64,000 bases of DNA. It comes from Sulfurimonas denitrificans DSM 1251 (GTDB taxonomy: Bacteria > Campylobacterota > Campylobacteria > Campylobacterales > Sulfurimonadaceae). The notes under the pieces are model-generated. The model worked only from the letters and a program-made list of their open reading frames with translations, was not told the DNA's origin and did no database searches. The stretch spans positions 1,178,001-1,242,000 of the forward strand of contig NC_007575.1 in NCBI RefSeq assembly GCF_000012965.1, written 5' to 3'. This document shows, piece by piece, positions 1,256 to 3,514 of this stretch. The position numbers and the translations under genes were made by a program. Positions within the stretch are counted from its first letter, which is position 1. Each line of letters opens with the position of its first letter.

Positions 1256-1810
1256 ATGCGTCTTAGAAACTACTTTAATAGAATGAAAACAAAAGATATT
1301 CGCCCTTCTCGCAAACCATTAACTAAGATAATATGGTCTGTTGTAGGCGCATTTATCGGTATATATGTAATGTCAATTTTTAGTAACCTATTTTCGGCAA
1401 AAGATAGTTTTTTTCTTCTTGGCTCATTTGGAGCATCTGCGGTTTTGGTATATGGTGCTCCAGAAGTACATTTTTCACAACCTAGAAACTTAATAGGCGG
1501 ACATATAATCTCTGCTTTTATATCAGTATTTTTGGTCAAGATGTTAGGAGATGTATTAAGTCTGGAAATTTTATGTTCACTTAGTGTGGCTCTTTCTGTT
1601 TTAGCTATGCATCTCACTCTCACTATGCATCCTCCAGGAGGGGCGACCGCTCTTTTATATGTAATTGGAAGTGAGCATATTCAATCACTTGGATGGCTAT
1701 ACCCTTTTACTCCGATTGGGTTAGGAACGCTTATGATGCTTGTGATAGCTCTTGTAGTTAACAATATGTCAAATAATTCAAAAAGACACTATCCTCTTTA
1801 TTGGTATTAA
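1256..1810 (+). CDS. HPP family integral membrane protein
   Basis: This is a 184-residue inner-membrane protein with about four hydrophobic helices and the family-defining HPP triplet at residues 125-127 (MHPPGGATAL). HPP proteins of cyanobacteria and chloroplasts have been linked to nitrite transport; the role of short bacterial forms is not established. A GGAG ribosome site precedes the ATG. The upstream FNR-type box suggests control by oxygen or nitrogen oxides, which would fit nitrite uptake or export in a denitrifying or nitrate-reducing organism, but that is inference. The stop codon overlaps the stop of the convergent globin gene. Confidence 0.8.
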   Translation: MRLRNYFNRMKTKDIRPSRKPLTKIIWSVVGAFIGIYVMSIFSNLFSAKDSFFLLGSFGASAVLVYGAPEVHFSQPRNLIGGHIISAFISVFLVKMLGDVLSLEILCSLSVALSVLAMHLTLTMHPPGGATALLYVIGSEHIQSLGWLYPFTPIGLGTLMMLVIALVVNNMSNNSKRHYPLYWY

Positions 1811-1815
1811 AGAGG
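1793..1815 (+). terminator. Terminator-like hairpin across convergent stop codons
   Basis: Two perfect 8-bp arms (CCTCTTTA and TAAAGAGG) flank a 7-base loop and are followed on the + strand by the T-rich stretch TGCTTTGTTTTTT. The hairpin sits inside the last codons of both the HPP gene and the opposing globin gene, so it could end the + strand transcript. There is no U-tract for the - strand. Confidence 0.55.
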
Positions 1816-2712
1816 TGCTTTGTTTTTTACATTAACCAACCAGTATGAAAAAGCCAATGCAACGATTACTACACCTATAACTAAAAGGTCATTGCCTTTC
1901 TCCGAAGAGAGCGAGTAGATAAGTACTTTTCTGATAAGTGCTGCCATGGCAAGCATTATAAAAGCGCCTATCGCAAAACCTTTGCCTTGAAGATGATTTA
2001 TCTCTTCATGAATAAGCTCTATAGCTGCCCATAAAACAAGCAAACTTCCAAGAACTGTCAAAATCCCCTTCTCTATTCCTATGTCTGAGAAAAAGAGTAG
2101 ATAAATATCATATACAAAAAGTCCAATAGCAAAAAAAGCGACAAGAGCGAGTGAACCTGCTAAAAAGAAGTTTATATATGAGTTAAATTTTTTAAGCCCG
2201 CCTAAAATTGTCTTTTCAAATTTAGAGAGTGATAAAAACTTACTTAACTCCTCTTCTCTGTATGAACTAGTAAGCGTATCAAGGTTTATATCTACAATTT
2301 TTTCAGCTGCTTGAATCGCCTTTAAACGACTCTCTTCATCTTCTATGCTCTCTTGTATATTCTTGATTATAAACGTTCTTACAAAAGTAAAAGCTGAGTT
2401 AACATAGTGGGTAGGAAGTCCTATTCTTACATGTATTTCACCAATTTTATATAGATACATAAAGTACTGTAAATCATATTTTCCGCAAAATAGGTTTATG
2501 AACCAAGCTTTTATCTTAGTTCTGTGATAATCGATAATTTTCTGATTTTTAAGAAATTTTGCAGTTGAGCCAAAGCCCCAAATATAATCATAAAACTCAT
2601 TTATAAACTTATCTGAAAGCTCACTCATTTTTGGTTGAAGAGTCGCTAAAATACGAGCTTCTTCTTCACTAAATTTATAGTCTGCTTTTAAACTATCATG
2701 TTGTTGCATCAT
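1807..2712 (-). CDS. Protoglobin domain fused to PsiE-like membrane domain
   Basis: The first ~155 residues match the sensor-globin/protoglobin fold, with the proximal heme histidine apparently H94 in the motif GEIHVRIGLPTHYV. Residues ~178-296 form four membrane helices resembling the phosphate-starvation-inducible PsiE family (IELIHEEI, AALIRKVLIYS, FSYWLVNVK). A heme globin joined directly to a membrane module, with no kinase, cyclase or methyl-accepting output, suggests a gas (O2 or NO) responsive membrane protein of unknown action. The start is ATG-ATG; the second ATG (2709) has better spacing from AAAGG. The gene has its own -10 box at 2737-2742. Neighbours are sodB and an HPP gene with an FNR box, a plausible oxygen/nitrogen-oxide setting. 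Confidence 0.8.
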   Translation of the reverse strand: MMQQHDSLKADYKFSEEEARILATLQPKMSELSDKFINEFYDYIWGFGSTAKFLKNQKIIDYHRTKIKAWFINLFCGKYDLQYFMYLYKIGEIHVRIGLPTHYVNSAFTFVRTFIIKNIQESIEDEESRLKAIQAAEKIVDINLDTLTSSYREEELSKFLSLSKFEKTILGGLKKFNSYINFFLAGSLALVAFFAIGLFVYDIYLLFFSDIGIEKGILTVLGSLLVLWAAIELIHEEINHLQGKGFAIGAFIMLAMAALIRKVLIYSLSSEKGNDLLVIGVVIVALAFSYWLVNVKNKAPL

Positions 2713-2736
2713 AAACCTTTTTGTTCATATTTTGTA

Positions 2737-2742
2737 ATTATA
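2737..2742 (-). promoter_or_regulatory. Candidate -10 box for the globin-PsiE gene
   Basis: TATAAT on the - strand, preceded by a T-run and GCG (TTTTTTGCGTATAAT), the extended -10 form typical of Campylobacterota sigma-70 promoters. It lies about 25 bases upstream of the start codon. Confidence 0.55.
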
Positions 2743-2758
2743 CGCAAAAAAATCTATT

Positions 2759-3436
2759 TTAACTAGTCACTCTATCTTGATTTTGAAGCTCATCTAAAAC
2801 TTGGCAAAATGGGTCGTGGATGTCGTTACAAGGCTCTATGCCTATAAAAACATTATTGTCTGTTTTCTCATACGCTTGTGTTGCAAACTCCCAGTTTATA
2901 TGCTCCCAAAACTCTTCTAAATACTTTTGACGCAGATTTTTATAATCCAAATAATAGGCGTGTTCCCACACATCACAAACAAAAATAGGAATCAAATTTG
3001 AAGCAAGTGGCGTATGTGCATTGCTTGTCTGCTTTAGCACCAACATCCCCTTTGGTTCTCTACATAACCACACCCACCCTGAACCAAACAGCGTCACTCC
3101 AGCTTTTATAAACTCTTCTCTCAACTTATCCAAAGAGCCAAAATCGTTGTCTATCTTCTCTTGTAGTTTTTTACTAGGTTTTGACTTTGAAGAAGCAAGT
3201 GAATTCCAGTAAAATGAGTGGTTAAACACCTGCGCCGCATTATTAAAAACCGCCCCATCAGAATCACGTATGATTGCAGATAGAGACATCTTATCAAACT
3301 CACTATCTTTTATAAGCTCATTGAGCTTATTTACGTAACCAGTATGATGCTTACCATAATGGTACTCTATTGTCTCTTTTGAAATAAACGGCTCTAACGC
3401 ATCGTGCGTAAAAGGCAACTTTGTTAACTCTATCAT
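2759..3436 (-). CDS. sodB: Superoxide dismutase, Fe type
   Basis: SodB converts superoxide to hydrogen peroxide and oxygen in the cytoplasm. The metal ligands are visible: H26 (IEYHYGKHH), H73 (FNHSFYW), D155 and H159 (DVWEHAYYLDY). The AAQVFNHSFYW context is typical of Fe enzymes. The start at 3436 is preferred to an ATG six bases upstream, because it gives a normal gap after the AGGA ribosome site. The conserved fold ends near residue 188, and about 35 further residues (to IHDPFCQVLDELQNQDRVTS) form an unusual C-terminal tail. The gene is divergent from hisS. Confidence 0.95.
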   Translation of the reverse strand: MIELTKLPFTHDALEPFISKETIEYHYGKHHTGYVNKLNELIKDSEFDKMSLSAIIRDSDGAVFNNAAQVFNHSFYWNSLASSKSKPSKKLQEKIDNDFGSLDKLREEFIKAGVTLFGSGWVWLCREPKGMLVLKQTSNAHTPLASNLIPIFVCDVWEHAYYLDYKNLRQKYLEEFWEHINWEFATQAYEKTDNNVFIGIEPCNDIHDPFCQVLDELQNQDRVTS

Positions 3437-3514
3437 GGTCATATCCTCACTTTTTTCAATTTACAATTTTTGTACAGCAACAAGATACTATTTTTAAAGT
3501 TTATTTAAAATAAA

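Follow-up and report, generated by a model that had tools for sequence, protein, structure and literature searches.

The 64,000-nucleotide stretch of Sulfurimonas denitrificans DNA analysed here (64 kb; the window) carries a gene for a 301-residue protein in which a protoglobin domain is joined to a PsiE membrane domain. We read this protein as a globin-coupled sensor that is bound to the membrane and belongs to the GsGCS family, with the PsiE module as its output, and put the probability of this reading at roughly 60%. Judging from its globin family, the fusion probably senses gas or redox. The protein is placed by sequence comparison as a branch of the GsGCS family, and the architecture itself is not new.

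Domain architecture

The globin-PsiE gene is a real fusion, as seen from the ORF call, the Pfam domains and the relatives. It begins with ATG and occupies positions 1807–2712 on the minus strand. The initial annotation had proposed a protoglobin half and a PsiE-like half, and both were recovered when the profiles were run. Residues 3–155 (2248–2706, minus strand) matched Pfam Protoglobin (PF11563) with 97.4 bits and E = 1e-27 against a gathering cut-off of 25; the domain is also delimited by a gapless alignment to 2w31 and by the tally of pocket residues. Residues 180–297 (1822–2175, minus strand) matched PsiE (PF06146) with 76.5 bits and E = 3e-21 against a cut-off of 23.9. An AIP3 domain at residues 110–168 scored below its Pfam cut-off and was rejected. 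The 301 residues contain no known output domain, as had been claimed.

The membrane half is strongly hydrophobic, and the AlphaFold2 model of this half alone gave four helices with a mean pLDDT of 81.6, in agreement with the four-helix membrane module described earlier. Between the domains lies a conserved helical linker (residues ~156–181; 2170–2247, minus strand) running from globin helix H to TM1, with helices predicted at residues 126–161 and 164–208 with middling confidence. Many of positions 149–181 were invariant in the alignment of 48 full-length proteins. The full-length model was of middling confidence (pLDDT 69.4, pTM 0.47; globins matched over residues 1–159), and for that reason the linker geometry is only predicted.

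Heme pocket of the globin

The gapless alignment with GsGCS places H94 on the proximal HisF8, which bears out the earlier proposal of H94 as the heme-binding residue. This histidine was invariant among the 48 aligned full-length proteins. The other pocket residues are Y41 (TyrB10), H63 (HisE7) and I67 (IleE11). HisF8, TyrB10 and HisE7 were invariant in 67/67 Campylobacterota-type proteins, and position E11 was Ile, Leu or Val in the same 67. The distal ligand of the GsGCS branch, HisE11, was absent from every one of these 67 proteins, which have His at E7 instead. Among the Geobacterales proteins (n = 35), E7 was mostly Leu and E11 was His in 32, the remaining three likewise lacking HisE11. 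HisE11 is therefore a branch feature and does not define globin-coupled sensors.

The GsGCS heme is described in PMC4476040, which cites Pesce et al. 2009, as bis-His (E11/F8) with HisE11 as a ligand. The resting heme state of the Campylobacterota branch is expected to differ, because a HisE7/TyrB10/IleE11 pocket takes the place of the LeuE7/HisE11 of Geobacter. The TyrB10/HisE7/IleE11 pocket was also present in globins joined to EAL domains in related Campylobacterota, and this globin type thus serves as a sensor module elsewhere.

Distribution and phylogeny

A total of 47 full-length relatives of the 301-residue fusion were found, at ~70–94% identity. In the public genome set, 53 loci encoded relatives; almost all bore the label Sulfurimonas, Sulfurovum or kin, and one was labelled Desulfuromonas. 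In the phylum sample, the full-length fusion was present in 20 of 397 genomes, scattered across several families, and a few others had pieces. Short or stop-interrupted pieces were seen in G220, G280, G369 and G732, and these suggest repeated loss of the gene. When the class of the Desulfuromonas genome was searched with the GsGCS globin, 112 of 277 genomes were positive, mostly with open frames of ~300 residues. Within the Geobacter lineage the fusion occurs widely; in Sulfurimonas/Sulfurovum its occurrence is patchy.

The Geobacterales-type proteins that were fetched showed ~36–41% identity to the 301-residue fusion and aligned across both halves. Protoglobin and PsiE both scored over cut-off in all six proteins scanned from this wider set (L119, L122, L123, L108, L132 and L147), with the longer frames used for L132 and L147. 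These two had appeared to be triple fusions of 795 residues, a candidate architecture that was rejected: the extra 500 residues are antisense to an AAA ATPase gene and a 658-residue gene. Five loci from the Desulfuromonas order (L100, L105, L106, L107 and L118) carried Campylobacterota-type fusions with HisE7 at 70–72% identity, pointing to transfer between phyla or, for MAGs, to misbinning.

The closest solved structure was the GsGCS globin (2w31, E = 7e-39), which was also the top structural match of the full-length predicted model, and GsGCS was placed inside the Geobacterales-type fusion clade in the globin tree. The full-length proteins of that clade carry Protoglobin and PsiE with GsGCS nested among them, from which we infer that GsGCS-family proteins have PsiE as their membrane half, for the G. 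sulfurreducens protein by way of its clade. To our knowledge, the globin of GsGCS has been crystallised and its membrane half has been left unexplained. The gas-sensing PsiE proposed in the initial annotation is not singular; it falls within the GsGCS family as one branch, and that family is widespread in the Geobacter lineage and has a globin domain that is already solved. No report treating protoglobin and PsiE together was found in the open literature, where the sole co-mention of a globin and PsiE was unrelated; the combination may already be visible in subscription papers or database architectures.

The PsiE halves of all fusions formed one clade (support 97/93) separate from stand-alone PsiE, a pattern that fits one lasting fusion event. 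The EAL-linked globins were placed beside the Campylobacterota branch in the globin tree with moderate support, and because of this position the globin type has probably been reused with other outputs as well.

Conservation and structure of the PsiE half

PsiE is the product of a phosphate-starvation gene, and its link with phosphate reaches beyond E. coli. We know of no function for it. In the fusions, mean pairwise identity was higher in the PsiE half than in the globin half, at 84.7% versus 74.3% in the Campylobacterota branch and 82.6% versus 58.5% in the Geobacterales branch. Since the PsiE half is better conserved than the globin and many linker positions are invariant, the PsiE half is probably not a passive anchor.

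The only near-universal PsiE residues were E232 (22/22) and R261 (21/22), in an alignment (n = 22) that took in 15 stand-alone members of the family besides E. coli PsiE. E232 lies in predicted TM2 and R261 in predicted TM3. H240 was the sole invariant histidine of the PsiE half in the Campylobacterota branch and is not retained in the Geobacter branch. A Foldseek structure search with the PsiE half gave a best E-value of 0.49, and the PsiE profile had zero matches to the sequences of solved structures. Fold kinship to Orai (Z 10.7), the VTC polyphosphate complex (Z 9.6) and DgkA (Z 9.4), the best VIA rows for the PsiE half, was rejected, as these scores fall within the range of unrelated helical bundles.

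Neighbouring genes and the FNR-type box

The two neighbours named in the initial annotation were confirmed by Pfam. The Fe/Mn superoxide dismutase gene sodB (2759–3442, minus strand) lies upstream of the fusion gene on the same strand, and the 46-bp gap between them (2713–2758, minus strand) contains TGCGTATAAT, which may be a promoter of the fusion gene's own. On the other side, the gene for a TM_HPP membrane protein (1256–1810, plus strand) is convergent with the fusion gene, and their 3' ends overlap by 4 bp. The sodB and HPP genes and the hisS region adjoin the fusion mainly in the closest Sulfurimonas group; among the relatives, sodB is directly beside it only there, and L009 and L020 also have HPP close to the fusion.

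At other loci the fusion lies beside a COX1-type/VWA/NorQ-like/COX3-like cluster or beside hemerythrin, single-domain globin or Crp/Fnr genes. No constant immediate neighbour was found across the loci, and because the immediate neighbours vary, they do not point to a target protein. In Geobacterales, with neighbour families named from one member each, a convergent ferrochelatase cluster recurred at 11 of 27 loci and a divergent AAA ATPase cluster at 10 of 27. At one locus (L149:2267–6184) the fusion gene is convergent with ferrochelatase, which follows uroporphyrinogen decarboxylase. Stand-alone PsiE genes were also seen in other surroundings: in a Campylobacterota genome one lies between phoU and a phoB-like regulator gene (L063:727–2512), and in L103 and L102 PsiE is, by eye, near phosphate-type regulator or permease genes.

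Upstream of HPP there is an FNR-type box, TTGAT-N4-ATCAA, at 1183–1196 (TTGATTTATATCAA). It was the sole exact FNR-type site in the window; one such box per 64 kb is not rare by chance (30 of 100 shuffles). The genome contained 11 boxes versus 12 in the reversed control, with no overall enrichment. The box was invariant in six Sulfurimonas HPP upstream regions with diverged flanks. Two further boxes elsewhere in the genome lie before a cytochrome c/NorB-like/cytochrome cd1 gene set and before a siroheme-decarboxylase-like gene. Because the box is invariant amid diverged flanks, and because of the gene context of these other boxes, HPP plausibly belongs to a denitrification regulon. HPP-family proteins of cyanobacteria and plants are able to transport nitrite. 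The box that had been reported with HPP is thus real and upstream of that gene, but it does not belong to the fusion gene. Control of the fusion by this box was rejected, as it faces HPP, which is convergent with the fusion, and FNR-type boxes upstream of 49 fusion genes were in no excess over chance (1 seen versus 1.1 expected).

Proposed mechanism and alternative explanations

In the sensor reading, the globin heme would bind O2 or NO, or change its redox state. The change at the heme would move the H helices of a globin dimer, the dimer being assumed by analogy with other globin-coupled sensors; the shift would reach TM1 by way of the linker, and the bundle of PsiE helices, with its conserved Glu (TM2) and Arg (TM3), would switch state. 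Since the fusion lacks both an enzymatic or DNA-binding output and a constant partner gene, PsiE is most likely a regulated small membrane protein, serving as a gate, as a transporter modulator or as a docking partner. A more specific and tentative proposal is that PsiE is a gated module, be it a channel, a modulator of a transporter or a docking protein, with its state under the control of heme ligation and with the distal His for the switch having evolved at E7 in one branch and at E11 in the other. If this proposal is true, the globin-PsiE protein would be the first ligand-switchable handle on the role of PsiE proteins. With GsGCS and PsiE in one family, PsiE would gain a controllable sensor domain and GsGCS a named output, and PsiE function would become testable through light absorption and simple gas shifts.

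A dedicated NO sensor in denitrifiers, linked to denitrification genes as well as to FNR/DNR control, would account for the NO-related neighbours at several fusion loci and for the presence of a NorB-like gene in 20/20 fusion-bearing genomes versus 74/377 others in the 397-genome phylum sample. That co-occurrence, tested without picking neighbours, was very strong unstratified and had p = 0.04 within genus, but it was not significant within one more fully sampled family (11/16 versus 42/78, p = 0.21), so the phylum-wide figure is mostly ancestry and was rejected as support for NO dedication. Nor was the count of NO-related neighbours near versus far (31 matches in 259 kb versus 5 in 196 kb) accepted as proof, since the tally is biased by queries chosen from the near neighbours. 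With the fusion widespread in Geobacterales without a denitrification context, and with the upstream box counts given above, we consider such dedication improbable. It is somewhat less improbable, though still unlikely, that the protein is a membrane-tethered globin enzyme that detoxifies NO or O2-derived species, with PsiE as an anchor that would also give quinol or a membrane reductase access to the heme for its reduction. The TyrB10 and HisE7 pocket could stabilise a bound ligand, sodB adjoins the fusion gene in the window, and several loci place the fusion beside single-domain globins, hemerythrins, Crp/Fnr regulators or the COX1-type/VWA/NorQ-like/COX3-like cluster. However, the fusion has no reductase domain, its PsiE half has no conserved His pair to hold a transmembrane heme, and the higher conservation of PsiE is contrary to what an anchor would lead one to expect.

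Signalling could also run in reverse, with PsiE sensing a membrane condition and the globin responding in its redox or ligand-holding state, or the protein could buffer heme at the membrane; there is little chance of either. Some stand-alone PsiE genes lie among pst/pho-type genes, and PsiE may therefore answer a membrane nutrient condition elsewhere; the convergent ferrochelatase cluster at 11/27 Geobacterales loci and the uroporphyrinogen decarboxylase gene before ferrochelatase in L149 also count in favour. The ferrochelatase neighbour, however, is convergent, shares no operon with the fusion gene and did not appear in Campylobacterota, and related globins are the N-terminal partners of EAL domains, the usual position of a sensor.

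Comparison with known systems

The closest system to the proposed sensor is GsGCS, which has the same globin type, with 43% identity to the globin of the Sulfurimonas fusion, and whose clade contains full-length proteins with the same domain order and a PsiE membrane half. The two branches share ~40% identity in either half and differ in the distal pocket, which is LeuE7/HisE11 in GsGCS and HisE7 with mostly IleE11 in the Campylobacterota branch. E. coli PsiE and the stand-alone members of PF06146 have the PsiE domain with its near-universal Glu and Arg. Unlike the fusions, whose PsiE halves are a clade of their own, the stand-alone proteins have no globin, and some of their genes lie among pst/pho-type genes, a setting not observed around the fusion gene. 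Globin-coupled sensors with EAL or other soluble outputs (L088 and its relatives, AfGcHK and HemAT) also begin with a protoglobin-type N-terminal domain, and the EAL-linked type (L088 and relatives) has TyrB10/HisE7/IleE11 in common with the fusion globin. In these proteins, however, a soluble domain, enzymatic or signalling, is the output, whereas in the fusion it would be the PsiE membrane module.
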